Assembly: GCA_026122225.1 (NCBI GenBank)
Contig: JANEZZ010000976.1
Coordinates: forward strand, 186,001-250,000
Length of the DNA: 64,000 nucleotides
Origin: Heloderma charlesbogerti
Taxonomy: Eukaryota; Chordata; Lepidosauria; Squamata; Helodermatidae
Direction: 5' to 3'
Under the pieces are notes generated by a model. That model did no database searches and was not told the DNA's origin. It saw nothing but the letters and a program-made list of their open reading frames with translations. This document shows, piece after piece, positions 1 to 60,817 of the stretch. Each line of letters opens with the position of its first letter. Within the stretch, counting starts at the first letter, position 1. A program made the position numbers and the translations under genes.

Positions 1-861
1 GCTAATACTTTGGAAGACAGAAACAAAATTCAAAGTGATCTGGATAGACTGGAGCACTTGGCAGAAAACAACAGAATGACATTAAATACGGATAAATGCC
101 AAGTTCTGCACCTAGGAAAAAGAAACAAAATGCACAGTTACAAGATGAGGGATACGTGGCTCAACAACACTACAAGCGAGAAAGATCTTGGAATTGTTGT
201 CGATCACAAGCTGAATATGAGCCAACAATGTGATGTGGCTGCAAAAAAGGAAAATGCTATTTTGAGCTGCATTAATAGAAGCATAGCTTCCAAATCCCGG
301 GAAGTACTAGTTCCCCTCTACTCGGTACTCCAGATGGTTAGGCCTCATCTGGAGTATTGTGTCCAGTTCTGGGCACCACACTTTAAGAAGGATGCAGACA
401 AGCTGGAGAGGGTTCAGAGGGGGGCAACAAAGATGATCAGAGGACTGGAATCAAAGCCCTATGAGGAGAGACTGAAAGAACTGGGCATGTTTAGCCTTGA
501 GAAGAGGAGACTGAGGGGAGATATGATAGCACTCTTCAAGTACTTGAAAGGTTGTCACAGAGAAGAAGGATCTCTTCTTGATCATCCCAGAGTGCAGGAC
601 ACGGAATAATGGGCTCAAGTTACAGGAAGACAGATTCTGGCTGAACATCAGGAAAAACTTCCTGACTGTAAGAGCAATACGGCAATGGAACCAATTACCT
701 AGGGAGGTGGTGGGCTCTCCCACACTGGAGGCATTCAAGATGAGGCTGGACAGCCACCTGTCAGGGATGCTCTGACTTGGATTCCTGCATTGAGCAGGGG
801 GTTGGAGTCGATGGCCTTGTAGGCCCCTTCCAACCCTACTATTCTATGATTCTATGATTCT
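1..861 (+). mobile_element. CR1 LINE, 3' part (5' side runs off the window)
   Basis: This is the end of the reverse-transcriptase ORF and the 3' UTR of a chicken-repeat-1 (CR1) LINE. Translation of 10-609 gives the CR1 C-terminal region, with the family signatures RPHLEYCVQFWAP, LERVQRGATKMIRGLE and SLEKRRLRGDMIALFKYLKG. The frame then shifts at about 575-605, and the last part (LKLQEDRFWLNIRKNFLT onward) continues in the frame of 578-775. The element ends with the tandem ATTCTATG motif at 841-861 that terminates CR1 elements. The copy begins before base 1. The frameshift makes it a fossil. It is the same subfamily as the minus-strand copy at 54304-55745. Confidence 0.95.
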
Positions 862-2330
862 TTCAAACCATAGTACAGTATTTGACATTAAGAAGCTTTG
901 CTTTGCCTTTCATAGCCTGAGTTTCTAACATTCTTAACATTTATATCTAAAATGGCATCTGGTCATCCTCTGAGCTGTTCTCTTTTCTCCGCCACTGGAT
1001 TAGGTGAGATACCAAAAGATTTGCAGACTTTGGGAGCAGATAAACTTCCTTCTCCTTTTTTGAATGGTGTCGCTGCAAATTGTTATTGTAAAACCTGAAC
1101 CCGTGCTAGGAAGCCCAGTAAAAAAAGAGCCTTTGCTCTAATAAATTACTTTAGTGCTTATCATATAACGGTAACGGCTTTAACGTTAAGTCTAAAAGCA
1201 CACATTACGAATTGACTATCGTGGACTGCGGATTCCATTATTTCCAGTCAAATAAGGTTACGATCCATTTAAAGCCCTGCTGCCTTTCGTAGGGAACAAT
1301 CTGAAAAGGTAAGTTGCCTGCAGAAAGTTAGACCAGGCTACATGTTACACACAAATGAACGTCCTAATGGCTGTGTGTTTGTGCGCTACGTGCAGTTTAG
1401 TCTAATTATACGCAAGCAGCTGACATGATCAGACTGTTCACATGTCCCGATGGCCCTTTTTTTACATGAAAAGCTGTTTGTAATGGAGAAACGGGGAGCT
1501 GGGGAGCAGTGCTTACACCTTTTCCCAACCCACCTTTTTGTTGCTCCAGATCATCCTCATTGGCCTTTCCCTCTAAATGTGTGGTTCTCACACACACACA
1601 CACACACTTGAAAGACTGGGGGAGGTGAGGATAGAAAAGCCACTTTGGGGATGATTTAGAGCAGAGAAATTGCAGGTAGGGAAAGGGTGATGTGCCCCCT
1701 CTCCACACCACTTCTCCTCTCCCAAAATCACACCTCCCGAAGGGGCTTTTCTTTTAAAAAGGGGTTGTCGGGCCACTGCTTAGTGATGGGCAAGCTCTCC
1801 TTGCCTCCAAATGGAATAGGGTGTGGCAAACTGAGTGCTGCAGAGAAGTGACACAAATGCCTTCAGAGGGACCTTGCTGACACTGCCCTGCTACCACCGC
1901 CAAGTCGGTATGGGAAGAATGCAGGGGAGCAAGGAGGACGACTGCCAGTGGGGACAAGGCAAATCCCAATATGAGCAGAGCACCATGGCAGAAGGCTCTG
2001 GGCTTGGCTCACATGGGGTGAGTCTTTTCAAACTACGACAGTTCGTATTCCAAAGTCCCCGTTTGTTTGCATGGAACAAATGTAGTTTGGCCCACTACTT
2101 GTTTTTTTAATGTGCTAGTGGCTCCATGAAAATCCCAGGCAAGGACCGCACGTTGTTGTCACAGAGCCATCAATATACAGAGTGCTTTAGTAAATAAACC
2201 AAGCACACAAATACACACTAGACTCTTGTTTCAGGAAGCTTACAGTCTAAATTCTGGCAGAGGAGAAGACAGAGGGGAGGAAGAAGGAAGAAAAGAGAGA
2301 ATTAAGGGCAAGAGGATTATTTAACCAGAG
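862..2330. other. Gene-free stretch, mostly unique sequence
   Basis: I see no gene or recognisable transposon apart from a short CA microsatellite. The part around 1080-1420 is complex, low in repeats and CpG-containing, and could be unique conserved sequence. The open frames here are short and overlap on both strands without any protein motif. Confidence 0.5.
1589..1607. repeat. (CA)n microsatellite
   Basis: About nine and a half CA dinucleotides in a row. Confidence 0.95.
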
Positions 2331-2704
2331 TCACTAACATCTAGGCTAGATTACTGTAATGTGTTATATGTGGGGCTGCCCTGGAAGACTGTTTGGGAAC
2401 TTCAGCTGGTTCAGAATATGGCGACTAGGCTCTTGATGGGTGCTTGCAGGTTTGACTATATCTTGCTAATTTTAAAAGACCTGTGCTGGCTACCAGTTTG
2501 ATTTGGGACATAGTTCAAAGTGCTGGTGCTAGACTTCAAAGCCCTAAATGGCTTGGGATCTAGGTATTTGGAGAACAGCTTTGTTCCATATGAGTCTGCC
2601 CAGTCATTAAGATCTGCAGCAGAGATCCTTTTCCCGGTGTTCCCATCTTCAGGGGTGAAGTGGGTGCTGACTGGACAGCTGGTGGTCATTTTTAGACTGC
2701 AAAT
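2331..2704 (+). mobile_element. L2-type LINE fragment, C-terminal RT region
   Basis: Translated in pieces, the segment shows the C-terminal region of an L2-clade LINE: a degenerate [16 protein letters not shown] block near 2345-2395, then KVLVLDFKALNGLGSRYLE near 2518-2572, then a divergent tail. The same blocks appear in order in the better copy at 28490-30535. Several in-frame stops show that it is an old, 5'-truncated fossil. Confidence 0.85.
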
Positions 2705-3867
2705 AAGTTTTTAGGATTTTGCCATTTTGAATATTTTATTCATTCTAGTTTTGGAAATCACATTGCATGCTGTTAAACGCTCAAGTCCCATTTAAATTTT
2801 AAATATACACATTTAAACAAACAAATAATGGGGGATCAATATCCCCCCAAAGTAGTTGTATGTTTAGTTTCAGTAGGGAATTAAGATAAAGGGGATTAAG
2901 CCAAAGGTTTTATAGAAGGTGTGTTTTGAGAATGGATTTGAAGGAAGAGAGAGGTGGCAAGATGTGTAGTTCTGGGAAGGGTTTCCATGCATGGGTGGCA
3001 GTGTGGGAAAATGGGTAGAGTCATTTATCAGAGTGGAAGAACTTTGGGCAGCTGAGCGTGGTAATGATGGAGAAGCAATATCAGGATATGAGGGACAGAG
3101 ATGAGCTTGCCCGCATTCTCCTTGAATGGACTTGAAAACATTTAGAGTTATTCCCCCCTCCCAAATAGAAATAACTTGGTTCATTTCCCAAGCCAACTGG
3201 AAGTTGGGAAGATAACCTCCCCTCCCAGCCCATCCTTCCTGATCCCCAAAATATTCTCTCTACCACTCCCACTCCCCAAAACACCCTCACCCTTCCCCTT
3301 AAAGCCTTACCTTAGGGCCAAAGCAGACATAACTTTAAGACATAGCTAGCAGCTATGATGTTTCTTCGTTTTTAGGCCAGAGTCAGAGCAGGGATTGGGA
3401 CCCCAGCATGGCGGGGGGATAGAGGGCTTTTGTCCATGCTATGTGCTCAATTTGTATCACCCCTCCTCCTGTGCCTGCCATTTCAGTTGCAAAATTGTGA
3501 TCCCTATGGATCGCTATTTTGCAATAGAAATTGCAGGCATGGGGACCCAATCTGGATCAGGTCCACAGCTTGGGGGGGAAGGGTTAAATCCACCCTACCC
3601 TCCATGCTAGGATCTTAATCTGGATTAGGCTCCCTGCATCTAATCTAGAGTAAAAATGGAAAAAAAGTGATGTCTGTCTTGGCTCATAGGTCGTTTTCTC
3701 CCATATAAGATCAGAGAAGGAATACTCCTTCCAAGATGATGCCTGCCAGCTGTGGTTTTTGTAAATAACTTTTTTTTTTTTTTTGAAATGCTGGTGCCTG
3801 ATTAATGGGGGTATTTTTCAATGGATCAAAATGTCTTTAACCGATTGGAACAGGAACCAGTTGGCAG
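2705..3867. other. Gene-free stretch with diffuse repeat relics
   Basis: There is no gene. The part at 2900-3010 resembles old interspersed repeat sequence. The part at 3330-3660 shares a block around a 'gacatagctagcagct' motif with 38520-38540, so it is probably one degenerate copy of an uncharacterised repeat. A T-run lies at about 3768-3784. Confidence 0.4.
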
Positions 3868-6560: not shown

Positions 6561-6902
6561 CCACTTAATAAAGGGGTATCATATGACAAGAATAGCATAT
6601 GATTTTAATGACAAATGTTCTTTGGGCCATAAGCCCACAATAAGGTAAGTGTGAAATCATTTCGTTCCTAAAGCAGGCAAAGCTTAGAAGGCAGTTTGTT
6701 TCATGGAAGCACCATAGGCAGCGTAGTGGCAGAACTCTGGCTTTGATTGTAGGCCTGAGAGCCTATCTCCCTAAATTCACAGAAAGCATGGTCTCTCCTT
6801 GGGACCTCAGGGAGTCCCTCACTCTCCAACTGTCCCATATTAGCCAGGACTGCCCCATTTTTCAGAGTCATGACCCTCCAATTGCCACCATTTCTAGGAG
6901 GC
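6482..6902 (-). repeat. Inverted duplication, arm A
   Basis: This 421-bp segment is the reverse complement of 10500-10926, with only scattered differences and small indels. Both arms end at the same 'ctaggaggc' boundary. Both carry the same junction between non-CR1 sequence and a CR1 tail, including the shared variant 'tagactagta', so they derive from one locus or one composite repeat. Confidence 0.9.
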
Positions 6903-7097: not shown

Positions 7098-7600
7098 CAC
7101 ACAGGTCAAGAGTGTAGTGTTGTACTATATAAAACATGCAAAGAATCCATGTTCTCATGGCTGCTCCAGGTAAATAAAAAAACAGCAGCTCAAAATGCCC
7201 TCTTCCAAGTTATCCCAACAAATCAAATTCACACGTTACATTCAACTTCATGGGAATGATTTAGAGAGTCACCAAACTTCTGGTGCCCTTTCTGGGTAGT
7301 AAACAGTTCATAGAAAAACATGCCCAGAATGCTTGGATCTGAGAACTCCAAAGCAATCAAACTCACATGTCATATATGACTAGGTGGGGGTGATGCAATG
7401 AGCTACAAAACCTCCAAACAATCCATGTTCCAGAGCCTGTTAATGGTCTTCTGGAAAAACAGTAAGGAACACCCAGTCCTGAGATAGCCCAGTGAACAGA
7501 ATTCACATGCCACATTGGACTGGAACGATTCAGTGCATCAGGAAACCTCCACAAAATCCACAGTCCGTTGCCCATTCCAAGTAGTATATCAGGTACACAG
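7098..7600. repeat. Degenerate ~137-bp tandem repeat (about 3.5 units)
   Basis: Units share an ordered set of words: 'aatccatgtt(c)', about 70 bp later 'aa(a)ttcacatg(c/t)cacatt', then 'gaa(t/c)gattcagtg', then 'cctccaaa'. The 'attcacatg' word recurs near 7226, 7360 and 7500, giving periods of about 134-140 bp. A closely similar displaced unit is at 8944-9030. Confidence 0.75.
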
Positions 7601-8395
7601 CCTGGGAGGCCTACTTCTGAGCCAACCTCATTGGCAAAGCCGACAAGTTTGCATTGCCTTACCTGAATTTGTATACAATCTTTTTTAAAAGGCTAAGAAA
7701 ATACATCCAGATTTTTATAGGCACACACATCTTGCTTCAGTGAAATGATATTCTTCCTCTGGCTTGGGCAGCTGTAAAGTTGGGCTGACGGTAAATCTTG
7801 TCAAGGAAATAAAAGATCCTTGGAATAGGAAGGCTAAGTCTACTAAATTTTTTTTTTTTCCAATTAGGGGGATTAGTAAGCCATTTTGTGCACCAATTTA
7901 ACAGATCTGCTAGAATAGGAAATAAAGTTGGGGAGTTTATTGAGGCTCTGATGTTGCACATAATGAGAAAGGGAAGCTGCAGGACCTAATTGAAAACAAA
8001 AGCTTTTCACTTTGGACAGCCATGGCTCCAGTTCCCATTTGAATTATGCTTCCATTAGCGGTAAGCAATCTCTGAAGTGGTGAAGCCCTCAGCTCCTTTT
8101 CTCTTAACGTGTTGCCGATTCATTCAAGAACCGGTCCATTGCAGACCTAACTGTCGAGAAGAGAACACCGTGTAAGCTTTGCTGCTGCAAACCTTGTGAA
8201 AGGATGCCACAGGAGACTGAAGAATGGCACCACAGCAAACATATGCTGTGGTTCCATTCTTACTGCAGCAGCTGACCTCAAAATGGCTGCTTCCTGAGGT
8301 TTCAGTTCTCAGCTGGATCAGTTCTCAGAACTGCTTCTTTCCAAATACCTATTCAGGGAACATTTTGGTTCCTGCAGTCATTACATTCCATCTCC
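7601..8395. other. Gene-free stretch
   Basis: No gene, LINE or SINE was recognised. It contains a T-run near 7848-7860. The frames at 7737-7961 (-) and 8224-8460 (+) lack any motif and overlap each other's antisense. Confidence 0.4.
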
Positions 8396-9355: not shown

Positions 9356-9568
9356 ACACCTAAGCTACAAATCAGGAAGTCTTCCCCAGTTTGAATCTCA
9401 TCTCAGCAATAAAATCACTGGGCAAGTTTAGGAAAGCCACTGTTTTTTCGAATCAGCCCACACTACAATATGGGGATAATGATAATTCCCAGCCCTGCAG
9501 TCAAAGGTTATAACCAGCCAGATGGGCGATTAATAAATTTAATAATAAATAAAATAAATAAATAAAAT
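9356..9568 (+). mobile_element. Old SINE-like element with LINE-type tail
   Basis: The body contains a degraded tRNA-like 'cagtttgaatctcatctcagc' block and a 'cactgggcaag' block typical of tRNA-derived, MIR-like SINEs. It ends in 'ccagatgggcgattaataaat' followed by an AATAAA-rich tail. The same tail occurs in reverse at 22140-22232 inside the giant hAT. Confidence 0.6.
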
Positions 9569-9842
9569 TATAACAAGATGGTGTATGTGAAACACTATTA
9601 AATGCTAATTGTTCTTGGCGGAGGAAGATCTTGGTGCTTATACCTGGGGGTGTGGAGTGCTCCTGTTTCGTGTTCTGGTCATCGTGAAGGCATAGTGCTC
9701 CAGTCTGCCTTCAGATACTGCACTCCTTCTCCCACCTAGTTTTCCTTCCCCCCCACCCCCCAACAGTCAGCCAGCACTCCATGGCTACTGCTCAGTCCTC
9801 ACTAAGCTGTTTTGGGCATTCTCCCCCTGGGCGAGTTCACCA
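9569..9842. other. Gene-free stretch
   Basis: No feature was recognised; it includes a short C-rich run near 9750-9762. Confidence 0.4.
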
Positions 9843-9965
9843 GATTTTTAAGGGTGCAATCCTATGCATGTTTAAACAGAAAGAAGTCCTACAACTCCTG
9901 GCTGGGGCATGCTGGGAGTTGTAGGGCTTTTTTCTGTCTAAACATGTATAGGACTGCACTATAAG
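9843..9965. mobile_element. Palindromic MITE (family P2)
   Basis: This is a near-perfect foldback. 'gtgcaatcctatgcatgttta' at the left is mirrored by 'taaacatgtataggactgcac' at the right, and 'ctacaactcc' is mirrored by 'gggagttgtag' nearer the centre. It is the intact counterpart of the element split by the giant hAT (14133-14298 plus 23516-23557) and of 45496-45612. Confidence 0.85.
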
Positions 9966-14120: not shown

Positions 14121-14132
14121 AAAGTGACATAT

Positions 14133-14298
14133 TTTAGAGCACAGTCCTATGCATGTTTGGACAGAAAAAAGTCCGACAACTCCCAGCATCCCCCAGCCAT
14201 CATGGATTGCTCCCATACAGGTTGTAAATTTAGGGTTCAATCTTATGTATGTTTAGCATGGCTGGCTGGGGCATGCTGGGAGTTGTATGACTTTTTTC
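14133..14298. mobile_element. Palindromic MITE (P2) copies, the second split by the hAT insertion
   Basis: Two pieces lie in tandem. 14133-14199 is a left half ('cacagtcctatgcatgttt' to 'cccagcatc'). 14215-14298 starts again at 'agggttcaatcttatgtatg' and runs through 'tggggcatgctgggagttgta' to the 'cttttttc' target site. The missing right arm of the second copy ('tgtctaaacatgcatagg') is at 23524-23541, on the other side of the giant hAT. Confidence 0.85.
14291..14298. repeat. Left target-site duplication of the giant hAT
   Basis: CTTTTTTC, identical to 23516-23523. Eight base pairs is the diagnostic length for hAT elements. Confidence 0.93.
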
Positions 14299-14311
14299 TA
14301 GGGCTGTGCAC
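14299..14311 (+). repeat. Left terminal inverted repeat of the hAT
   Basis: TAGGGCTGTGCAC, exact complement of 23503-23515. Beyond these 13 bases the two ends diverge. Confidence 0.92.
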
Positions 14312-14445
14312 AGACTCCCCGATCCGCTTCGGACCAATTTGGACCCCCTCCAATCCAACTTGGATTCGAATCCAAAGCAAGATTCGAATATCCAGATCGC
14401 CCGTTTTTTGCATTTTCCCATTGACTTGCATGGGAAAACACAAAT

Positions 14446-14935
14446 GGTCATAACTTTATCAGTTTTTATGATACATGCATGGAATATAGGGACCTCTCCA
14501 TTGCCCTGGAGAGGAGGCCACCTGCAAAATTTCTGACAATTTGGACAAGTGGTTTTTGTGCTAGGTGGAGTTAAAATTGGATGTTTTCCACAGAAACTCT
14601 CAAAGCAAAGAGCTGTAACTTTTCCCTGTTTCCACATATGCATGTGACACCTTGGCCCCTCCCAGCTCCCCTTGAGGGCAACCCACTTGCCAAATTCCAG
14701 GCACTTTGGTCCACTGGCTTGTGTGCAAGGCGCATATGAAATTTAAGTTTTTCCAGGAAAACTCCCAAAGCCAAGAGCTGTAACTTCTCCCTGTTTCCTT
14801 GCACGCGTGTGACACCTTGCCCCGCCAGCCCCACTCCAGGGCATCGCTCCCCCCAAAGCCCAGGCAGTTAGGCCCACTGGCTTGTGTGCTAGGTGCAGGT
14901 CAAATTTCAGTTTTACATGAAACTCAAAGCAAACC
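14446..14935. repeat. Subterminal ~165-bp tandem repeat, three degenerate units
   Basis: Each unit opens with a 'taact' block preceded by 'gtcat' or 'gctg' (near 14446, 14611 and 14776, giving a 165-bp period). It continues with 'tgc/gca..gtgacacctt' and 'ccactggcttgtgtgc(a/t)agg' words. Units 2 and 3 are clearly alike; unit 1 is more diverged. Subterminal repeats near hAT ends commonly serve as transposase-binding sites, which would be the inferred role here. Confidence 0.75.
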
Positions 14936-15804
14936 CAGAAGGAATTGTGTGTTGAAGTGTGGGTCACTATGCCTACTATCTGCTGCAGGTTTCTCTGAAG
15001 TGCAGAACAAGTTTATTCTGAAGAATTACCAGCTCAGCCTCTATGGCTGCACATACACTTTACCTGGCTGGCAGGCTGGAAGACATGTCTATCTGCTGCT
15101 GTTTATTCTAGCACACACAGAATGAGAATTGATATTTTTATGTTTGGGGTTTTCTTTTCTTGGCCAGACCACTTCTGCCCAAACTCAAACAGGTTTTAAT
15201 GTAAAACCTGATTCTCGGGACCAGAAGGAACAGAGAGTCCTGCAAGAGCATATTAATTGTTACCCAGTTTGTGCAGTTGGTCCTCTCTGCTGAACTCAGG
15301 CTCTCGGTGGTCTTGTGACAGAGGCAGGAAGACACAGCAGCACTGCCAGTCGGGACCTGTGGTGGTTCTACCGCTCCGACATGCCAGCAAGCGCTTCTGT
15401 TGGGAAGCTCTGCCAGGGCAGTGGACATGGATTGTGGGAATAGTTACACTGGTTTTCGAAAGGAAGGATGTTCAAAAGAACAAATGAAAGAAACAAAGAA
15501 AGGGGGATGAATGGACCAAAGTGCGATGCCTTGCCCACTAGGTCATATTGTGTAGGGAAGAGCGGCTTGGGGTTGCAAGCCAGAGAACAGCAGGGCATCC
15601 CCTTAGGGAAGAGCGGCCTGTGGCCAGAAAGCAGGGACCTGGAGGAGGCTGGCAGAGGCCGACAAAGGCAGGCAGGCTGGCGGAGCCTGGAGGAGGCAGC
15701 CAGGCTGGCGGAGGGTATACATGTGACGGGATGGGGGGGGGGGAAGGACAACAGTGCCTTGAAACCTGACAGTGCCTTGCACACTGGGGCATCTGACTCT
15801 GGAA
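14936..15804. other. Unrecognised interior of the hAT, left of the minisatellite
   Basis: No protein motif was recognised in any frame. A G-run lies at 15732-15742. The bases from about 15751 contain two degenerate 'acagtgccttg' words, which look like decayed edge units of the following array. Confidence 0.5.
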
Positions 15805-18639
15805 GGGCCATTCGATTCTGTAAAGGGGACAGTGCCCAGCCCAGAGGGGCAATTCGATTCTGTAAAGCGGACAGTGCCCAGCCCAGAGGGGCAATTCGAT
15901 TCTGTAAAGCGGACAGTGCCTAGCCCAGAGGAGCAATAAGATTCTGTAACGTGGACAGTGCCCAGCCCAGAGGGGCAATTCGATTCTGTAAAGCGGACAG
16001 TGCCCAGCCCAGAGGGGCAATTCGATTCTGTAAAGCGGACAGTGCCTAACCCAGAGGGGCAATTCGATTCTGTAAAGCGGACAGTGCCCAGCCCAGAGGG
16101 GCAATTCAATTCTGTAAAGCGGACAGTGCCTAACCCAGAGGGGCAATTCGATTCTATAAAGCAGACAGTGCCTAACCCAGAGGGGCAATTTGATTCTGTA
16201 AAGCGGACAGTGCCCAGCCCAGAGGGGCAATTCAATTCTGTAAAGCGGACAGTGCCTAACCCAGAGGGGCAATTCGATTCTGTAAAGCAGACAGTGCCTA
16301 ACCCAGAGGGGCAATTCGATTCTGTAAAGGGGACAGTGCCCAGACCAGAGGGGCAATTCGATTCTGTAAAGGGGACAGTGCCCAGCCCAGAGGGGCCATT
16401 CAATTCTGTAAAGCGGACAGTGCCCAGCCCAGAGGGGCCATTCGATTCTGTAACGAGGACAGTGCCCAGCCCAGAGGGGCAATTTGTTTCTGTAAAGCGG
16501 ACAGCGCCCAGACCAGAGGGGCCATTCGATTCTGTAAAGCGGACAGCGCCCAGACCAGAGGGGCCATTCGATTCTGTAAAGGGGACAGTGCCCAGCCCAG
16601 AGGGGCCATTCGATTCTGTAAAGGGGACAGTGCCCAGCCCAGAGGGGCCATTCGATTCTGTAAAGCGGACAGTGCCCAGCCCAGAGGGGCAATTCGATTC
16701 TGTAACGTGGACAGTGCCCAGCCCAGAGGGGAAATTCGATTCTGTAAAGGGGACAGTGCCTAGCCCAGAGGGGAAATTCGATTCTGTAAAGGGGACAGTG
16801 CCTAGCCCAGAGGGGCCATTCGATTCTGTAAAGGGGACATTCAATTCTGTAAAGGGGACAGTGCCCAGCCCAGAGGGGCCATTCGATTCTGTAAAGCGGA
16901 CAGTGCCCAGCCCAGAGGGGCAATTCGATTCTGTAAAGCGGACAGTGCCCAGCCCAGAGGGGCAATTCGATTCTGTAACGTGGACAGTGCCCAGCCCAGA
17001 GGGGAAATTCGATTCTGTAAAGGGGACAGTGCCTAGCCCAGAGGGGAAATTCGATTCTGTAAAGGGGACAGTGCCTAGCCCAGAGGGGCCATTCGATTCT
17101 GTAAAGGGGACATTCGATTCTGTAAAGGGGACAGTGCCCAGCCCAGAGGGGCCATTCGATTCTGTAAAGCGGACAGTGCCCAGCCCAGAGGGGCCATTCG
17201 ATTCTGTAAAGCGGACAGTGCCCAGCCCAGAGGGGCCATTCAATTCTGTAAAGCGGACAGTGCCCAGCCCAGAGGGGCAATTCGATTCTGTAAAGCGGAC
17301 AGTGCCCAGCCCAGAGGGGCAATTCGATTCTGTAAAGCGGACAGTGCCCAGCCCAGAGGGGCCATTTGATTCTGTAAAGCGGACAGTGCCTAGCCCAGAG
17401 GGGCAATTCGATTCTGTAACGCGGACAGTTCCTAGCCCAGAGGGGCCACTCGATTCTGTAAAGTGGACAGTGCCTAGCCCAGAGGGGCCATTTGATTCTG
17501 TAAAGCGGACAGTGCCCAGCCCAGAGGGGCCATTTGATTCTGTAAAGCAGACAGTGTCCAGCCCAGAGGGGCAATTCGATTCTGTAAAGCGGACAGTGTC
17601 TAGCCCAGAGGGGCAATTCGATTCTGTAAAGGGGAGAGTGCCTAGCCCAGAGGGGCCATTTGATTCTGTAAAGCGGACAGTGCCTAGCCCAGAGGGGCCA
17701 TTTGATTCTGTAACACGGACAGTGCCTGGTCCAGAGGGGCAATTTGATTCTGTAACGCAGACAGTGCCTGGTCCAGAGGGGCAATTCGATTCTGTAACGC
17801 AGACAGTGCCTGGTCCAGAGGGGAAATTCGATTTTGTAAAGCGGACAGTGCCTAACCCAGAGGGGCAATTCGATTCTGTAAAGCGGACAGTGCCTAGCCC
17901 AGAGGGGCAATTCGATTCTGTAAAGCGGACAGTGCCTAGCCCAGAGGGGCCATTTGATTCTGTAAAGCGGACAGTGCCCAGCCCAGAGGGGCCATTTGAT
18001 TTTGTAAAGGGGACTGTGCCCAGCTCAGAGGGGCCATTTGATTCTGTAACGCGGACAGTGCCTGGTCCAGAGGGGCAATTTGATTCTGTAACGCGGACAG
18101 TGCCTGGTCCAGAGGGGCAATTCGATTCTGTAACGCAGACAGTGCCTGGTCCAGAGGGGAAAATCGATTTTGTAAAGCGGACAGTGCCTAACCCAGAGGG
18201 GCAATTCGATTCTGTAAAGCGGACAGTGCCTAGCCCAGAGGGGCAATTCGATTCTGTAAAGCGGACAGTGCCCAGCCCAGAGGGGCCATTTGATTCTGTA
18301 AAGGGGACTGTGCCCAGCCCAGAGGGGCCATTTGATTCTGTAAAGGGGACTGTGCCCAGCCCAGAGGGGCAATTCGATTCTGTAAAGCGGACAGTGTCTA
18401 GCTCAGAGGGGCAATTCGATTCTGTAAAGCGGACAGTGCCTAGTCCAGAGGGGAAATTTGATTCTGTAAAGGGGACAGTGCCTAGCCCAGAGGTGCAATT
18501 CAATTCTGTAAAGCGGACAGTGCCTAGCCCAGAGGGGAAATTCGATTCTGTAAAGGGGGGCAATTCGATTCTGTAAAGGGGACAGTGCCCAGCCCAGAAG
18601 GGCAATTAGATTCTGTAAAGCGGACAGTGCCTAGCCCAG
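15805..18639. repeat. 42-bp minisatellite array, about 67 units
   Basis: The unit is 42 bp and reads, in two parts, 'gacagtgcccagcccagagg' + 'ggcaattcgattctgtaaag' + 'cg'. It repeats for 2,835 bp. Variants are limited: gccca/gccta, agc/aac/ggt before 'ccagag', caa/cca/aaa before 'ttcgat', and cgg/ggg/cag at the unit end. Higher-order repeats are visible: a 273-bp block with a half unit (half units start near 16833 and 17106) and a 336-bp block of eight units (17815 versus 18151). These show amplification by unequal exchange in blocks. Many unit differences sit at CpG positions (ttcgat to tttgat or ttcaat; aagcgg to aagcag or aagtgg). The array lies wholly inside the giant hAT. Confidence 0.97.
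15958..18576 (+). other. 872-codon open frame through the minisatellite, probably not a gene
   Basis: The frame translates as about 62 copies of a 14-residue unit TVPSPEGQFDSVKR with variants at N/S, Q/P/K, K/T and R/G/W/Q. There is no signal peptide, no non-repetitive domain and no evident initiation context. The minus strand is equally open (15603-18605, 1000 codons; 15538-17910, 790 codons). Openness on both strands is expected once a 42-bp (14-codon) unit lacks stops. Unit differences are often non-synonymous and CpG-driven. I therefore regard the frame as a by-product of the repeat, while noting that transcription is untested. Confidence 0.85.
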
Positions 18640-19185
18640 TCAAAGGTATTCTTGAGATGGGACAACGAGTAGCCCAACAAGGCATATTTTCCATGGAAGA
18701 CCTGCCTGGGGCAAGGTGGTTGGACACGGAAACAAACCAAAGCCAAGACTTTCCAGATGGCACTTATATAGGGGAACACCCTGAGGGGTGACTGCAGTTC
18801 CACCACTCTGGGCCCAACACCAAGAGCAAATGAAGGAGCAATGCAGAAAGAGAACACCCTACATGCTGAAGGGAAGAGGGAGGGGAGTCATGCTGCATTA
18901 TTCACCAGGACCTGAAACTGGAGAATGAACCAATCTCTTCCAGCCCAAGTAATACAGGAATCTACTGTTTTGAAACAAAAAGCCCACCAACTCAAGGCAG
19001 GGACATTGACATTAAAAATAATAAAATACCAAAATTGGTTCTCCGGAGACTCTTTCCCTGAGGGCGGAAGAGAACACAGCCTGTCTGCCAGGAGGGCCAA
19101 TCCACACAGCAGAACCATGCCATCTCAGTGGAACTGGAGGGAGACAGATGCTACAGCATCTCCTCACATTCAGAGCTAGGTTCCA
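18640..19185. other. hAT interior between minisatellite and transposase
   Basis: No recognisable protein or repeat. On the strand of the transposase this is downstream sequence, so it may hold the 3' UTR. Confidence 0.45.
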
Positions 19186-22003
19186 TCACTGAGTGCAGAG
19201 ACTGACATAATGAAGTATGGCGGAGGACGAGGATGACAACAACAACGACAACAACATATATGCCCTGAGTGGAGGACCCTTACAGATACAGACATGGTAG
19301 TATATCACCCCCTTGGGTAAAACCATAGTTGGGTTGGTGTACTGAAGCTCAGCAAAGTAATAATAGGAAGAATAGTACAAATAAGTCCTACTTATCACAA
19401 TTGAATAACTGGAATGCCACACCTGGAAAGACAAAGGAAAGCAGCCCAAAGAAGGAGAAACAGCGCAGTTAGTGTGATTGTGTGTGCAGCTCAAATCACC
19501 CGAGGGATTGAGGGTGGGGTAGCTCAGCAGGGGCATGTTGACTTTGAGGAAGACCAGATGCTCCACTAAGTCCAAGCAGGAGCGGTGGAGTGTCACCATG
19601 TCACCGGCCATGGAGAATACCCTCTCATCGGGGACGCTAGTGGGTGGGCAGCTGAGTCTTTCCCTGGCCACACGAGCCAGGTTTGGCCAAGTAGGCTGTG
19701 GGATGACCAGTAGGCCATGGGGTCCATGGTCCAGTCTTCCAGAGGCTGTGCCAGGTAATGCTGCACAGATATTGCGGCGGCATCCTGGTGGATGGGTTGG
19801 GTGCGTCTCCCCCCAACCGCTGACTGCACTGCCCTGGTCCATAACCCCTGGCCTGTGGTCCTGCTGGGACTGATACCACTGGAAAGGATGGGGAACGATC
19901 TCCTCGCCTCCTCCTCCTCTGGCACCTGCCCCAGCCTTTTCATCTGTTCCTCCCTCACTTGCCCCACCAGTTTTTCCAGCCACAGCATCCAGGAGTTGTC
20001 CCCACAAAGTCCATCTTTCAGGTGCGGATCATATATGGTGGCCAACGTGTATGTCCTCTCCCAGTACAGGGGCTCTACCCGCTGAACTAGGCCATCCCTC
20101 AGCCTTGTCACCACTACCCGCATGTCTGGCAGGAAGCACCTGCCTGTGACGAGGTCCCCGGTCTCCAGAAACTCGCCCATCTGCTTCTGGAGATGCCGGG
20201 CCACAGGGATCACCTGGCTGAGGAGGGTGGTGCCAGTGCTCAGGGTCTCAGTGGCCTCAACGAACAGCTTGAAGACCACCATGAGCTGGGACATGGCATC
20301 CCACTGCTACCTGCCCAGGGGTGCCTGGATACCAATGAACCTGACCCTACACACCTCGTGGACAGCACGCTGTTGCTGCAACATACGCTCGAGCATGAGG
20401 TAGGAGGAGTTCCAGCGTGTTGCCACATCTCGCACCAGCCTGTGCTGCAGGAGCCCCGACTCCACCTGCTGCTTCTGTAGCAGCCCACTGCGCTTGGTGC
20501 TGTCGTGGAAGTGCCCAGCCACCTTCCTGCAGCTCTCCAGCGGGTTACAGACGCCGGACACAGGGGTGGGATACGCCTTGCTGCTGCCCATTCCGAGGGC
20601 ATCCCTCTTGGTCATGTTGAAGATATGAGAGATGCAGTGGATGCCCTCGAATCCGCCGTCGTGCACAGCCTTCACCACGTTGAGCCCATGTATCCGCAGG
20701 TAAGCTGGTGACCAGCCAACCACCCCTCCACCATGCAGTTCATGGCCTCCATTGTCTTTGCTGCCATGTGGGACTGGTCCAGGACTTGCGTGTGAAGGAG
20801 GGCCCACCAGTACCCATCCTTCTCGCCAGTCCCAGAAGTGCTGGCCACTACCATCCCTGGGGCTGCCCGCCAGTGAGCTGTCAGAGACAAGTAAGTGTGT
20901 GCTCCGCCCTCACTGGACCTGGATCAAATGTCCAAGGTGAAGTGCACCATCTGCGACTCTGCCTGGCGCAGACGGTCCACCACTTTCTTCTGGCATGCCC
21001 ATTACAGGGAGGACACCACCCGCCTGCTAAGGGTGGTGCGACATGGCAGCTTGTAGTAGGGCACCAACGGGGCCATCAACCTCTTGAACACCGCATTTTT
21101 GATGAGGCAGAATGGCTGGTTGTCCACGCCACCATCTCACCGATTTAGTTGGTGATCTGGTCGGGCGCTGGAAACCTCCACCTGGTGAACACATACTTCC
21201 CCCACCCCATCTCCTCCATGGTGGCCTGCCTAAGCCTCTTGGGGGTGAGAGACAGAGAGCTTGCAGGAGTTCCGGCAGCACTACCAGCCTTCTGCTTGCC
21301 CCTGCTGCCAGCCTGCTGGGATGTAGGGCTTCTTCCTCAAACAAGACCAATTGGTGTTGCCTCCTTACCTGCTGGTGCTGTATTGTCCTGGCTGTTTCCC
21401 CCTGCTGAGAGATGCCTTGCAGTGGTGGCACACATCAGCGCTGGGATCCGCTCCCAACTCAAAGTGGTCCCACACAATGCTGCCCTGACGTTTCGGGGGA
21501 GGAGGAGATGCAGACTGCCTGCCTTGAGTCTGGGGGGGCACCCCACGAGCGGGGGGAACAATGGAAGAGGGGCCAAATGCTGGAGCCTCTGCCTGCTGCT
21601 CCTCCTCCAGCACACCCTGAAGGATCTCCTCCTCTTCACCCTCCACCACGCTGAGGATGGCAGACATCTCTGACCTAATGTCCATCAACGGGCTCTCCTC
21701 TTCCACTACAGGAGATGCTGCTCTGCCTTGGGCAAGAGTGTGACTACTGCACCTGCCGACGTGAGCCTCCTCGAACAGTGACCTCCAAGCACTGCAACTG
21801 GCCTGCTGCCCTACTGCACCAGGACGCAGTATCTGGACTAGGGGACAGACAGCTTGCCTAACGGTGCTGCTAGAGACAGCCGCACCTCTCCCACCTCTGC
21901 CCCTACCAACACCTCGAAGATGCCTCATACTGCGCTGGATTGCTTTGCCACACAGTGGAGTGTTATTGAAATAAGAAGATAATATAAATACTATATGTCT
22001 CAT
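19186..22003 (-). pseudogene. hAT transposase with BED zinc finger, decayed
   Basis: The transposase would cut and join the ends of its own element in the nucleus. Reading the minus strand from 22003, an N-terminal glycine/arginine-rich segment is followed by a BED-finger start near 21370-21480 (VWDHFELG...CHHC). A degraded stretch follows with the conserved order of hAT blocks: FCLIKNA and KRLMAPLVPYYKLP (21030-21110), LTAHWRAAPGM (20860-20885), then HCISHIF and DVATRWNSSYLMLERML (20370-20640). After these come VIPVARHLQKQM (20130-20240), LATIYDPHLKDG (20000-20050), and the C-terminal dimerisation block SCPPTSVPDERVFSMAGDMVT with LVFLKVNMPLL (19530-19665). The blocks fall in different frames and there are in-frame stops, for example TAA in the THR/ASN region near 21150, so this copy is dead. 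The coding part is much richer in GC than its surroundings. It is not a domesticated ZBED gene, because intact element ends flank it and the frame is broken. Confidence 0.9.
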
Positions 22004-22139
22004 GCTTTTTCAACACTGCCTTGAAATTTGAATGTATAGTGTTGGTGGAAAAACAACCTAGCACGCACACACACGGACACAGACACATAAGAGCTAAAGA
22101 AAAGCAGAACTACCTAAGCAAATGATGGGTGTCTTTATT

Positions 22140-22260
22140 GTTTTATATTTCATGTTATTATTATTATTATTATTATTAAATTATTATTATTAAATGTATT
22201 AATCGCCCATCTGGCTGGTCACCCAGCCACTTCCATGTTCTTTTATGGAAGGCAGGGTAA
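22140..22260 (-). mobile_element. Nested SINE-like tail inside the hAT
   Basis: An ATT-rich run (22151-22195) followed by 'aatcgcccatctggctgg' is the reverse complement of the tail at 9515-9568, so an element of that family inserted into the hAT or its ancestor. Confidence 0.65.
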
Positions 22261-22455
22261 CTTCAAGAAATACAGGATGACAGCGCAGGCAATAAGATAA
22301 GAGCCAAATCAAACAATAATTTTAAAAAACTTTATTTAATTTCTGTTTTGGGAGGATGAACATAGAGAGAAGACACAGACAGTTCACTTCAGCGGGAGGA
22401 GGGGGGACCAAACACTGCACACATAGGCTGCTATAATATACCTTTCTTTAAGAAT

Positions 22456-22457
22456 TT

Positions 22458-22508
<51 letters not shown>
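22456..22508. repeat. (GAAA)n microsatellite
   Basis: About twelve GAAA tetranucleotides. Confidence 0.95.
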
Positions 22509-23502
22509 GCGAGCTTGCATATGACTTAAAAGGGGGGGAACATACCCAGAAGTCAATGTTTGCTTTTAAAAATCGAAATAAGACGGAGTTTTAAAAATCT
22601 AAAAGAGACAGAGTTGACAGACAAAACTGACAAGGAAATAGAATGGAGAAAGCAGAAGTGAGGGTTGAGCTTAAACAACAATTCCGGAGTCCAAGCAACA
22701 TAAACAAACAAACAAACACAGGAATGAGTGAGGGCGTTGCAGCAACTTGCGAGGAAAAGCTATGTTAGCTTGAAAAAATATGGAAAGGAGAGATTAATCT
22801 AAACAAATACAAATAACAAAGAGTTGGAGGTAGAAAGAAATAGGAGAATGTGACTGGAAGAGGTGCTGCAGAAGACACCGTCCCAAAGGGGACAGATGAT
22901 CAAGGAGCAAGGGAACGCTCTCAGTACAACCAAGCTGTTTCCTTTTAATTTAAATTTTGAGGAATGCCTCATGGCTATCAAATCAAATAAATTGAAGGCA
23001 CAACTCCTAGGAATGCACGTGCACATGATCATCTACCCACATCAGCCCTCTCCCAAAGACACAGCTTTGCCAATAACCAAACGCAGCCTTTTGCCCAAGT
23101 ATATATACCCCCTTCCTCCACCACTCTCTCTGACTGGAGACTGCTGGTGTCGGTTCTGGCTGAGATTTCCTATTTGCCAAAGCACACTCCCTCCTCCTGC
23201 TGCTCTTGCCTTCCCGCCTCCCCCCGCCATCCCACGTCTGCTCACCTTCCCCCTCCCTTCCTCCCTCTCTCCTCCTCATGCCCCTCCAAATGAGCGTTCA
23301 GCAGTTGATACATTTTGGGGACAGCCTGTCTTGACTGCTCAGGCATTAATTAGAGGTCTGAATATACGAGGCGGAGGAGGTGCTTTGGGGGGGGTGCTTC
23401 ACCCTGCGGTGCCTCGGTAGTCCTCTGACCCTCTCCGTATCACGAGAATTCTGCTCCAAATAAGCCCGCTTTGCCTCATTATTCAGGCTTCATAATGAGG
23501 TG
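22509..23502. other. Right (5') region of the hAT
   Basis: On the transposase strand this is upstream, likely promoter and 5' leader. A 185-aa plus-strand frame (22863-23420) has no motif. A pyrimidine-rich tract lies at 23185-23285. Confidence 0.45.
23099..23108 (-). promoter_or_regulatory. Candidate TATA box of the hAT transposase
   Basis: A self-complementary 'gtatatatac' lies about 1.1 kb upstream of the first transposase codons and 0.4 kb inside the right end. The motif is symmetrical, so direction comes only from gene context. Confidence 0.35.
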
Positions 23503-23515
23503 GTGCACAGCCCTA
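23503..23515 (-). repeat. Right terminal inverted repeat of the hAT
   Basis: GTGCACAGCCCTA, exact complement of 14299-14311. Confidence 0.92.
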
Positions 23516-23557
23516 CTTTTTTCTGTCTAAACATGCATAGGATTGCACTCTTAAAAA
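23516..23557. mobile_element. Right target duplication and remaining arm of the split P2 MITE
   Basis: CTTTTTTC (23516-23523) duplicates 14291-14298. Then 'tgtctaaacatgcatagg' and 'attgcac' complete the palindrome interrupted at 14298. Confidence 0.9.
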
Positions 23558-34172: not shown

Positions 34173-34597
34173 GGTTTTCAGGTGGCTTTCTACCAGTGCC
34201 AGCTCCTGGTCTTTGATGGCCCTTGGGCAAGACACCCTGAATGGCCCCCTCCTTCAGTGCCTCTGAAGGCACCATTATCAGGTTTTCAGGTGGCTTTCTA
34301 CCAGTGCCAGCTCCTGGTCTTTGATGGCCCTTGGGCAAGACACCCTGAATGGCCCCCTCCTTCAGTGCCTCTGAAGGCACCATTATCAGGTTTTCAGGTG
34401 GCTTTCTACCAGTGCCAGCTCCTGGTCTTTGATGGCCTTTGGGCAAGACACCCTGAATGGCCCCCTCCTTCAGTGCCTCTGAAGGCACCATTATCAGGTT
34501 TTCAGGTTGGCTTTCTACCAGTGCCAGCTCCTGGTCTTTGATGGCCCTTGGGCAAGACACCCTGAATGGCCCCCTCCTTCAGTGCCTCTGCCTTCTT
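34173..34597. repeat. 108-bp tandem repeat, 3.9 copies
   Basis: Units start at 34173, 34281, 34389 and 34497 with 'ggttttcagg'. They are nearly identical: one T/C change ('gatggcctttggg') in unit 3 and one inserted base at the start of unit 4. 108 is a multiple of three, so frames of 134-143 codons stay open on both strands; they are not genes. High identity implies recent amplification. Confidence 0.97.
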
Positions 34598-45222: not shown

Positions 45223-45495
45223 AATGCCGTCTCCTTTTGCTGGCGTGTAAGACATCAGGAATGTATTTTATAGAACAACCTTTTAAAGTGTTATCCTTTT
45301 TCTGCACACATTTTGCAACTGCTCTCTTGGATAATTAACAATGTTATCTTGCATAATACTTGGTGGAATTCTGTGTAGGCCATGTAACTCATCCTCATAG
45401 GAGAAAGTGCCTAATACCAATTGAAGCGTCAAAGTCTTCAGCTCTGCCATAGGAAATTTTAGATGTGGTCTGTCTAGTACCTCTAGTAAGTGATT
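45223..45495. other. Short unannotated spacer
   Basis: No recognisable feature. Confidence 0.4.
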
Positions 45496-45612
45496 AAGGA
45501 TGCAATCCTATGTATGTTTAGAGAGAGAAAAGGCCTACAACTCCCAGCATTCCCCAGCCAGCAAAGTGAGTTGTAGGCCTTTTCTCTGTCTAAACATGCA
45601 TAGGATTGCGCC
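45496..45612. mobile_element. P2 palindromic MITE, intact
   Basis: 'gcaatcctatgtatgtttag' mirrors 'ctaaacatgcataggattgc'. The inner 'ggcctacaactcccagcat' mirrors 'gagttgtaggcc'. Confidence 0.88.
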
Positions 45613-45702
45613 CTAAACTGGGAAGAAGCATCTTCTGTTGTTTTAGAAAGCAGCTTTCTGTTGATTATTTTTTCTAAGATGTTTGTTTGATTAAATGCAT
45701 GA

Positions 45703-45963
45703 TACTGAAGCTGAAGCTCAAATATTTTGGCCACCTAATACGAAGAGAAAACTCACTGGGAAAGACCCTGATGCTGGGAAAGATGGAAGGAAAAAGGAGA
45801 AGGGGACGGCAGAAGATGAGATGGCTGGATAGCATCAGCGATGTAATGAACATGAACTGGAGCGCACTCCGGGAGAGAGTGCAGGACAGGAAGGCCTGGC
45901 GTGCCATGATCCACGGGGTCACGAATAGTCGGACCCGACTTAACGACGTAATAACAACAACAA
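45703..45963 (+). mobile_element. BovB LINE, 3' end
   Basis: Encodes the last ~80 residues of BovB in one frame (from LKLKYFGHLIRRENSLGKTLMLG through RRRGRQKMRWLDSISDVMNM to AWRAMIHGVTNSRT). It is followed by the BovB 3' terminus and an 'aacaacaacaa' tail. The frame is open over what remains. Confidence 0.93.
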
Positions 45964-46838
45964 GTGGACACATCAGTGTGGCTAATAGGCAACCCATACA
46001 AACGAAAAGGCTTCTGCACATAATACTTGATGCCCAGGCTTGCATGTAGTGTGAAATCAGGAGTGGACTTTGGGCTGGCTTGTTCCTTCCTTGCTGTAGG
46101 TAAAAGCTAATGCAAGATTCATCTGCTGCAAAGTGTAAAGCAAGTTCAAGCAAAACACCAGAGGAAGCCAAAAGAGTGTTGATGAGACTAATGAAATTTC
46201 TCAAGGATGTTGGGGGAGATGGCTGAACTTGTCTTTGATTGTCAGAAGTTTTGGGGGAAAACAAAATTCAAAGCAAGGCGAAAGATCTGAGGAATTTTGA
46301 GGGAAATCAAGAAAATGTTGATAAGACTAGAGGAATTTCTACAGGAGGTTTTGCCGATCTTAAAACTGTACAGGGAGCGATGAGCAAACAGCCCTACATG
46401 CCTAAAATGTAATGGAATGCATGAGCGGCTTTTCCAAAATGGCTGCTCTGAATGGATTTGTTCTGACTTGCCTACAAAAGTGAAGGGCTTTGGAGGCTCT
46501 CTCTGGGGAGGACATTCTTCAGTGGGAATGTCCCACCAGCCCACTGGACAGAGATGAAGAGAGAGAGAGAGATTGTCTGAAAGAGAGAGAGAGAGAGAGA
46601 GAGAGAAGGAGTTGGCAGAAAGAGATAAGGTGGCCACTTATGCACCACCGAAAAAGAGAGATATGCACCACCGAAAAAGGGGACAAAATATGTATCAAAT
46701 TTGAATATGCTAATTTAGATAGATAGATGCTAAGTTAGAAGTAATTACCAAAATTTAAATTTTACAGAACCTGGACCTGCAGCAAACTGTTGCAATGGAT
46801 GACCTGCTAAAGCTCTTGGGATGGCTACCTAGATGAGG
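45964..46838. other. Gene-free stretch
   Basis: Apart from the GA microsatellite nothing is recognised; the 196-aa minus frame (45674-46264) is largely antisense of BovB. Confidence 0.4.
46555..46610. repeat. (GA)n microsatellite, interrupted
   Basis: Two GA runs separated by 'ttgtctgaaa'. Confidence 0.93.
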
Positions 46839-51238: not shown

Positions 51239-53765
51239 CGTTGTTGTTCAGTCATTCAGTCGTGTCCAACTCTTCATCACCCCGTGGACCATAGCACGCC
51301 AGGCCTTCCTGTCCTGCGCTATCTCCCGGAGTGTGCTCAAGTCCATATTCACTGCATTGCTGATGCTATCTAGCCATCTCATCCTCTGCTGTCCCCTTCT
51401 CCTTTTGCCTTCAATCTTTCCCGGCATCAGGGTCTTTTCCAGTGACTTTTCTCTTCGCATTAGGTGGCCAAAATATTGGAGCTTCAGCTTCAGTATCTGT
51501 CCTTCCAATGAGCACTCAGGCTTGATTTCCTTTAGGATTGACTGATTTGACCTCCTTGCAGTCCAGGGGACTCATAAGAGTCTTCTCCAGCACCACAGTT
51601 CGAAAGCATCAATTCTTCGGTGCTCAGCCTTCCTTATAGTCCAGCTCTCACAGCCATACGTTGCTACTGGGAAAACCATAGCTTTGATTATGCGGACCTT
51701 TGTCGGCAAGGTGATGTCTCTGCTTCTTACTATGCTGTCTAGGTTTGCCGTAGCTTTCTTCCCAAGGAGCAAGCGTCTTTTAATTTCATGGCTACAGTCA
51801 CCATCTGTGGTGATCTTGGAGCCCAAGAAAATAAAATCTGTCACTGCTTCCATTTCTTCCCCTTCTATATGCCAGGAAGTGATGGGGCCAGATGCCATGA
51901 TCTTAGTTTTTTTAATGTTGAGTTTCAAACCAGCTTTTGCACTCTCCTCTTTCACCCTCAACAAGAGGCTGTTTAGATCCTCTTCGCTGTCTGCCATTAG
52001 GGTGGTATCGTCTGCGTATCTGAGGTTGTTGAAAATTCTCCCAGCAATCTTAATTCCAACCTGTGATTCACCCAACCCGGCGTTTCTCATGATGTACTCT
52101 GCATATAAATTAAATAAGCAGGGTGACAATATACAGCCTTGTCGTACTCCTTTCCCAATTTTGAACCAATCGGTTGTTCCATGTCTGGTTCTTACTGTTG
52201 CTTCTTGGCCATCTTACAGGTTTCTCAGGAGACAGGTAAGGTGGTCTGGTACTCCCATCTCTTTCAGAATTTGCCACAGTTTGTTGTGATCCACACAATC
52301 CAAGGCTTTAGTGTAGTCAATTAAGCAGAAATAGACGTTTTTCTGGAATTCTCTTGCTTTTTCCATGATCTAGCCAATGTTGGCGATTTGATCTTTAATT
52401 CCTCTGCCTCTTCGAAACCCAGCTTGTATTTCCGGTAGTTCTCGGTTCACATGCTGCTGAAGCCTAGCTTGTAGGATTTTGAGCATCACCTTGCTGGCAT
52501 GTGAAATGAGCGCAATTGTACGGTAGTTTGAACACTCTTCGGCGTTGCTCTTCTTTGGAATTGGAATGTAAACTGACCTTTTCCAGTCTTGTGGCCACTG
52601 TTGAGTGTTCCAAATTTGTTGGCATATTGAGTGCAGCACTTTTAACAGCATCATCTTTTAGGATTTTAAATAGCTCAGCTAGAATACTGTCACCTCCGCT
52701 AGCTTTGTTGTTAGCAATGCTTCCTAAGGCCCACTTGACTTCATTCTTTAGGATGTCCGGCTCCAGTTCATTGACTGCAGTGTCATGGCTATCAGGGACA
52801 TTCAGATCTTTCCTGTATAGTTCTTCTGTGTATTCTTTCCACCTCTTCTTAATCTCATCTGCTTCTGTGAGGTCCCTGCCTTCTTTGTCCTTTATCATGC
52901 CCATCTTTGTACAAAACGTTCCCTTGAGATCTCCAATTTTATTAAAGAGATCTCTAGTCTTTCCCATTCTGTTGTTTTCCTCGATTTCTTTGCATTGTTC
53001 ATGTAAGAATGCCTTCTTGTCTCTCCTTGCTATTCTCTGGAACTCTGCATTCAGTTGGCTATATCTTCCCCTTTCTCCCTTGCTTTTTGCTTCCATTCTT
53101 TCCTCAGCTACTTGTAGAGCCTCATCAGACAGCCACTTGGCTTTCTTGCATTTCTTTTTCTTTGGGATGGATTGAGTTGCTGCCTCCTGAACAATGTTAC
53201 GGACCTCCGTCCATAGTTCCTCAGGCACTCTGTCTATCAGGTCTAATCCCTGAAATCTATTCCTCACCTCCACTGTATATTCATAAGGGATATGATTGAG
53301 GTCATACCTGAATGGTTTAGTGGTTTTCCCTACGTTATTCAATTTAAGCAGAAATTTTGCAAGAAGCAGCTCATGATCTGAGCCACAGTCAGCTCCAGGT
53401 CTTGTTTTTACTGACTGTATAGAGCTTCTCCATCTTTGGCTGCAAAGGACATAATCCATCTGATTTCAATATTGACCATCTGGTGATGTCCACGTGTAGA
53501 GTCGCCTCTGGTGCTGTTGGAAAAGCGTGTTTGCTATGATCAGCGTGTTCTCGTGGCAAAACTCTATTAGCCTTTGTCCTGCTTCATTTTGTACACCAAG
53601 GCCATGCTTGCCTGTTATCCCGGTGATTTCTTGACTTCCTACTTCAGCATTCCAATCCCCTATGATGAAGAGGACATCTTTTTTTGGTGTTAGTTCTAGA
53701 AGGTGTTGGAGGTCTTCATAGAACCGATCAACCTCAGCTTCTTCAGCATCATCACCATGCAAGGT
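51239..53765 (-). mobile_element. BovB LINE, about four fifths of full length
   Basis: On the minus strand the order is as follows. The endonuclease C-terminal half (53762-53330) has IIGDWNAEVGS and the GSDHELL motif. A long linker region follows (52464-53459, 331 codons open). Then comes the RT, with palm blocks around 52300-52650, a break, and 51572-52129 with LFNLYAEYIMRNAG and an intact YADD. The ORF is stopped at 51572-51574 by TGA where the 60.8-kb copy has CGA, a CpG-to-TpG change. The last segment 51248-51508 is open again. Several frameshifts lie between 52130 and 52470. 5'-truncated inside the endonuclease. Confidence 0.93.
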
Positions 53766-60777: not shown

Positions 60778-60817
60778 CTGATTATGCTGTATCATTCAAG
60801 GCATCTTTTGATAACGA

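Follow-up and report, generated by a model that had tools for sequence, protein, structure and literature searches.

An inactive hAT transposon copy with an unusually expanded family minisatellite in Heloderma charlesbogerti

Results

Element Structure and Insertion Site

The window (the whole 64-kb stretch of DNA that was analyzed) carries a DNA transposon whose boundaries were placed by script at positions 14299-23515 (9217 bp, about 9.2 kb). The left terminal inverted repeat, TAGGGCTGTGCAC, lies at 14299..14311 on the plus strand, and its exact reverse complement forms the right terminal inverted repeat at 23503..23515 on the minus strand; the two agree at 13 of 13 bp. Outside them is a perfect 8-bp target-site duplication, CTTTTTTC, at 14291..14298 on the left and 23516..23523 on the right. 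No further exact copies of the 13-mer were found on either strand of the 64-kb window, and two places in a 64-kb stretch would agree in this way over 13+8 bp with a probability of about 5e-4 (2e9 pairs x 4^-21). The exact boundaries claimed in the preliminary description are therefore confirmed by the inverted repeats and the duplication.

The flanks of the element are two parts of one palindromic host repeat. Its outer arms (14132-14172 and 23515-23555) match in inverted orientation at 88%, and its inner arms (14163-14199 and 14263-14299) at 92%. Uninterrupted relatives of the palindrome occur in the window at 9845-9964 and 45494-45617, and these are probably copies of a small dispersed palindromic host repeat. 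Both align through the junction with a single target copy each (CTTTTTTC; CTTTTCTC). The left flank of the element carries additional bases at the center of the palindrome, and these are absent from the two paralogs. Since the uninterrupted paralogs have one target copy, they provide independent (paralogous) evidence that a single piece with these ends was inserted, and the splitting of a host palindrome by the insertion is borne out by its arms and by the two uninterrupted copies.

A 42-bp minisatellite of about 66 units occupies 15805..18639 on the plus strand (tandem-repeat analysis and unit count). Its regular part at 15805-18555 has 65.5 copies at 88%, followed by a ragged end to about 18639. 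Sixty-nine unit anchors include 66 full 42-base units, two of 21 bases, and one of 23 bases, and the 66 full units comprise 44 distinct sequences. Divergence of the units from their consensus averages 2.76 of 42 bases (6.6%), and pairwise identity is 0.909 (25 units sampled). Identity within the array drops with distance up to about 8 units and is back up to 0.81 at 36-38 units. An exact run of 193 bp recurs 273 bp on, and inspection of the listed units shows a block that recurs after about 336 bp. Element sequence borders the minisatellite on both sides (15723-15805 and 18640 onward), and the same borders also enclose two units in relative L019 and the array of relative L036/L044, which are described below. 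The 9.2 kb had been taken as the element's own length; about 2.8 kb of it is added by this minisatellite, which belongs to the family and is expanded in the window copy.

Other repeats are present inside the element. A subterminal array with a period of about 165 bp and about 2.5 copies lies at 14492..14933 on the plus strand (repeat analysis); its spacings are 165 and 163 bp, and its copies are 66-76% identical. This array and the minisatellite both fall within 14299-23515, as was claimed. A 28-bp GC-rich tandem repeat (2.5 copies, plus strand) is located at 15646..15714, with similar ones in L018 and L019, and an (AGAA)n microsatellite found by tandem-repeat analysis is located at 22458..22508 on the plus strand. 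Alignment to relatives showed that (TTA)n with a short tail at 22165..22230 (no strand assigned) is absent from them. The flanking matches overlap by about 16 bp in 11 of 20 relatives, as expected if a short piece had been inserted later and had duplicated its own target, and a related stretch occurs in the window at 9513-9578.

Transposase

Domain profiles and protein relatives place a broken, ZBED4-like hAT transposase gene on the minus strand, from about 22009 to about 19480 (19480..22009). It consists of a BED-finger remnant, an RNase-H-like core, and a C-terminal hAT dimerization region, the last of which matches Pfam PF05699 (Dimer_Tnp_hAT) with an E value of 2.2e-7 and 31 bits versus a cut-off of 21.4. 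BED zinc fingers are common in the hAT superfamily, though not universal. The one in the window copy scores 17.1 bits, under the Pfam cut-off of 20.6; both Cys are kept, the first His reads Gln, and the last His is readable in another frame only. The gene lies in pieces in changing frames: the reading frame shifts several times, and at least four in-frame stops interrupt it. When the window copy is laid beside Hermes via the profile, the first Asp and the Glu of the catalytic D-D-E are readable, and the VTD motif with the second Asp, present in relatives such as protein P0002, is unreadable at a frame break. By analogy with Hermes, we take the Asp, Asp, and Glu at these positions to be the catalytic residues. 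The transposase of L019 is also broken, with two stops and frame changes relative to protein P0001.

The protein search used the transposase read-through with X at stops and joins, and 28 relatives were found at E <= 0.001 among 7998 scored. The best match is P0001, which is ZBED4-like and comes from the lizard Hemicordylus capensis (44%). The ten best relatives have 34-44% identity over 93-99% of the searched part, and all are annotated with zf-BED and hAT dimerization domains; nine are named ZBED4-like or BED-type (from lizards, caecilians, and a frog), and the second-best, P0002, has no name. A profile built from these ten and the window copy matches Hermes transposase structures (E 1.8e-28) over the RNase-H-like core (profile 319-607) and the C-terminal SER-FS region. 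Judged by the PF05699 match and the Hermes match of the family profile, the element belongs to the hAT superfamily, and this part of the preliminary description stands; its 8-bp target duplication and short inverted repeats are also those of a hAT. The implied autonomy does not. As read from its frames, the window transposase gene is dead and the copy is inactive; an autonomous active element is excluded by the frame breaks, the stops, and the unreadable second catalytic Asp.

The Transposon Family

The host assembly (2.30 Gb, 3246 contigs) was searched with the left 501 bases of the element, which gave 3405 first-look candidates, 40 of which were scored. All 40 matched, 39 of them being places besides the window at 84-87%. 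Twenty relatives out of the 21 best of these 39 were fetched with 10 kb each and are a non-random sample. The right end of the window element follows in the same orientation in 18 of the 20; it was not found in the 10 kb fetched for L012 or for L015. The insertion had been proposed to be a single element, and ends from two different families had been named beforehand as the result that speaks against this. Instead, the right end in 18 of 20 left-end relatives indicates that both ends belong to one family. TRF also reported a 163-170-bp period (2.1-4.5 copies) in 15 of the 20 fetched relatives, a presence that is partly built in because the left-end query held the subterminal array.

The ends of the both-ended relatives are well kept. 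The left inverted repeat retains 10-13 of 13 bases in 17 of the 18 (the exception is L009), and the right one 11-13 of 13 in all 18. Six have an 8/8 target duplication (L011, 2684 bp; L013, 2102 bp; L019, 9112 bp; L022, 2095 bp; L023, 2854 bp; L027, 3798 bp), three have 7/8, and five have 6/8; little or no duplication is seen in the remaining four (5/8 in L020, 3/8 in L014, and 2/8 in L009 and L018). Just inside the left repeat, 28-77 extra bases are present in 16 of the 17 relatives with a recognizable repeat (41-42 bases in 11 relatives). The window copy lacks these bases (at 14312-14317), and L011 likewise has none.

A search for copies that share the ends, the transposase, and the minisatellite had been suggested, and L019 (9112 bp) was found. 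Its transposase region is 82% identical to that of the window, and its left end, array flanks, transposase, and right end are arranged as in the window, but with about two diverged 42-bp units only. Shorter forms are frequent, and to judge from their sequences, most both-ended relatives are internal-deletion derivatives like those of maize Ac/Ds. One deletion junction, joining 14791 to 21890, recurs in L013, L014, and L023, and this sharing suggests that deleted forms moved as such.

Minisatellites have tandem units of about 10-100 bp that differ in number between copies, and both features were found for the 42-bp repeat. Apart from the two units of L019, the fetched left-end relatives have traces of about two units in L024 and L025, and no unit was found in 17 of the 20 (E <= 0.001). 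Of 61 candidates from a genome search with 545 array bases, 40 were scored. Besides the window, 39 places match over 64-519 bases, and C2764 has a second row; no match outside the window exceeds 519 bases among the 40 scored of 61 candidates. The eight best places were fetched with 1.5-kb flanks, and all eight have 40-42-bp arrays of 3.7-13.4 copies. Overall, arrays at ten other places examined have about 2-13 units versus about 66 in the window.

The surroundings of these arrays are those of the element. In L036, L038, L041, and L042 the array passes directly into sequence corresponding to 18640 onward; in L037 and L043 that sequence is found about 0.3 and 0.75 kb farther on, respectively. 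In L040 the array is followed by sequence from 21894 on, without the 18640 sequence, and in the 1.5-kb flanks of L039 the 18640 sequence was not found after the array. The array and the right end occur together in L040, L044 (a wider stretch around L036), and L045; the left end of L044 was not found in the 9 kb fetched. Outside the window, more than about two units between both ends were not seen, with L045 covered without its left part. In L044 (window orientation), the right end at 6857 is followed by right-end-like pieces at 7169-8272 and another right repeat at 8272, which suggests an adjacent or nested second copy.

The transposase gives a similar picture from its own side. A genome search with 1001 bases of its 3' half gave 204 candidates, 40 of which were scored and all of which matched (39 besides the window, at 78-87%). 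A same-strand array match lies upstream within 10 kb in 18 of the 39 other copies, with 40 of 61 array candidates scored, one pair (C2222) 7.1 kb apart, and C2499 and C784 looking like one place twice. The distance between array and transposase is 756-821 bp in nine of the 18, and 840 bases in the window. Unit lengths in relatives are 40-46 bp and are mixed in most arrays. Nine other arrays with at least two units have higher identity within the array than between arrays; the margin is narrow in L036 (0.743 vs. 0.708) and L041 (0.757 vs. 0.724), and the L036 units are as close to the window units as to each other (0.743). Identity within the array reaches 0.921 in L039 and 0.905 in L045, and window units match those of other elements at 0.733. 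We take the 42-bp array to be a long-standing component of the family's long form, located at a fixed site.

Tandem duplication has also affected the middle of the element. Positions 1153-4963 of L019 are an old tandem duplication of this region, about 67-73% identical between copies and including the site of the 42-bp array. L045 carries in part such an old duplication of the middle region (225-3434), again including the array site. By this comparison, a length of about 9 kb is reached in two ways, by array growth in the window and by old duplication in L019.

Discussion

The locus is an inactive hAT copy with clear boundaries, and its family minisatellite is unusually expanded. We consider it highly probable that this copy is old and was inactivated, that it belongs to a hAT family with many copies in the host, and that its array grew in place and is a passenger. 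The long form of this family would have a ZBED4-like transposase, a left subterminal array of about 165-bp period, and a short 40-42-bp repeat between that array and the transposase 3' end. Transposase would have excised the element elsewhere and pasted it into the host palindrome, which would account for the CTTTTTTC duplication; the ends and the duplication are observed, and the act itself is assumed from known hAT behavior. The transposase gene, observed to be broken, would then have decayed, presumably in this order. The 42-bp array, present as about 2-13 units elsewhere, would have grown to about 66 mostly after insertion, as its homogeneity and block duplications suggest. Array-free deletion derivatives appear to have moved and multiplied, to judge from shared deletion junctions and target duplications.

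Compared with the consensus of relatives, the window element differs by 9.8% at its left end (17 relatives) and by 12.8% at its right end (13 relatives). The units are closer to their own consensus (6.6%), which suggests growth in place; slippage or unequal exchange would have produced most of it once the element was inserted. The age of the array and the age of the insertion are confounded by conversion between units, which could mimic late growth. Alternatively, the jumping copy may already have carried the long array, in which case all 9.2 kb would have moved together. Since arrays characterize the family, that copy probably did carry an array of some length, and the homogeneous arrays of L039 and L045 mean that homogeneity is not unique to the window. 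Arrival with the full array is nevertheless unlikely, given that array matches at other places (among the 40 scored of 61 candidates) reach 519 bases at most and that the units diverge less from consensus than the ends do.

The 40-42-bp repeat might have a function in the long form, such as an array for binding or regulation next to the transposase 3' end, and might be retained at one site for that purpose; jumping might then sow minisatellite seeds throughout the genome, some of which, the window array among them, grow to kilobase arrays. We give this only a small chance. Five of the six relatives with 8/8 target duplications have no array unit. Unit-free relatives with perfect duplications, together with shared deletion junctions, indicate that the array is dispensable in cis for transposition. 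A passenger repeat is the best reading of these sequences.

Tandem arrays are often mis-sized in assemblies, and the host assembly is split into 3246 contigs, so the unit number in the window could be an assembly artefact. We regard this as improbable: 44 of the 66 full units are distinct, and any spurious part would chiefly be the duplicated blocks with steps of 273 and about 336 bp.

Coding by the array, as a protein of the element with a 14-residue repeat, is very improbable. Long open frames do run over the array (plus strand, 15940-18576; minus strand, 15603-18605), and 182 substitutions give no new stop in the plus frame and one minus frame. However, the unit length of 42 is divisible by 3, and one open unit is then enough to keep the frames open; relatives have units of 40-46 bp with lengths mixed in most arrays. 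The synonymous share is slightly over the uniform expectation on both strands (0.35 vs. 0.25 and 0.41 vs. 0.28, uncorrected for shared ancestry), and one piece of the plus frame had no match among 8000 candidates scored in a protein search. A coding array is rejected on the grounds of the 42-base period and this result. Pfam matches in the frames of the array, to the bacterial rhamnosidase C-terminal domain, XPB_C, and other families, look like artefacts of repeat composition, with no single stretch above threshold by itself.

A composite, in which two elements supply the ends or an unrelated minisatellite entered the element, is hardly credible: the left and right subterminal regions are unlike each other past 13 bp (100 bases compared), but both ends occur together in 18 of 20 relatives, L019 repeats the whole order with an 8/8 duplication of its own, which together rule out two families, and the array flanks are found again in relatives.

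The preferred reading, a decayed hAT copy with an array grown in place, can be set beside known systems. Hermes (6dww, 8edg, 4d1q, 2bw3) is alike in its core and SER-FS match, short inverted repeats, and 8-bp target duplications. In contrast to Hermes, the window element is ZBED4-like, 9.2 kb long with internal arrays, and broken. The ZBED4-like or BED-type relatives from Hemicordylus (P0001), Anolis (P0008-P0010), caecilians (P0003, P0004, P0006, and P0007), and a frog (P0005) are known here from their proteins alone, without their elements. Maize Ac/Ds is described as one autonomous form with numerous non-autonomous derivatives that have ends and subterminal repeats in common; internal deletions account for some of the derivatives (PMC3260210). 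Unlike the window element, Ac is 4.6 kb, and the word "tandem" is absent from the main text (PMC3260210).

Internal tandem repeats have been described in other DNA transposons. The TPE tandem repeat of the hAT element hobo differs in number between copies, but according to the available text it lies within the reading frame in 3, 5, or 7 copies (PMC4807377), whereas the window repeat is 42 bp, apparently non-coding, and present in about 66 units. Internal tandem repeats of the Tetris foldback element vary in number and can become long arrays (PMC4079207). The MITEs Xstir and miDNA4 bear satellites, with internal tandem repeats that likewise vary and can lengthen (PMC9659126). They differ in other respects: Tetris, Xstir, and miDNA4 are classed as non-autonomous, with miDNA4 a Tc1-mariner element (PMC9659126), and Tetris repeats sit in the inverted repeats, with the term "hAT" absent from the paper (PMC4079207). 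The open-access literature searched, as far as its text was available, contains no hAT with an internal minisatellite in this layout. The suggestion that no hAT of this architecture has been described therefore holds within that literature, and has to be narrowed in that arrays in other DNA transposons and hobo TPE are in print.

The family offers the same short repeat at the same site in many copies, whose individual decay allows each to be dated and whose unit numbers range from about 2 to about 66 among those examined. The timing and manner in which a minisatellite starts and grows are thus measurable, as is whether transposition spreads or resets the repeat. The family also illustrates that the long forms of a vertebrate hAT family reach about 9 kb by an internal array or by an old internal duplication.

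Other Repeats in the Window

Rfam gave no match in the 64-kb window at gathering scores. Outside the element, 34173-34590 holds 3.9 copies of a 108-bp unit with 99% matches, far more uniform than the 42-bp array. A 1015-bp inverted pair (51240-52254 and 60816-61830) is 95% identical and has a related piece at 45701-45965, and positions 1-860 match 54304-55154 at 91% in inverted orientation.
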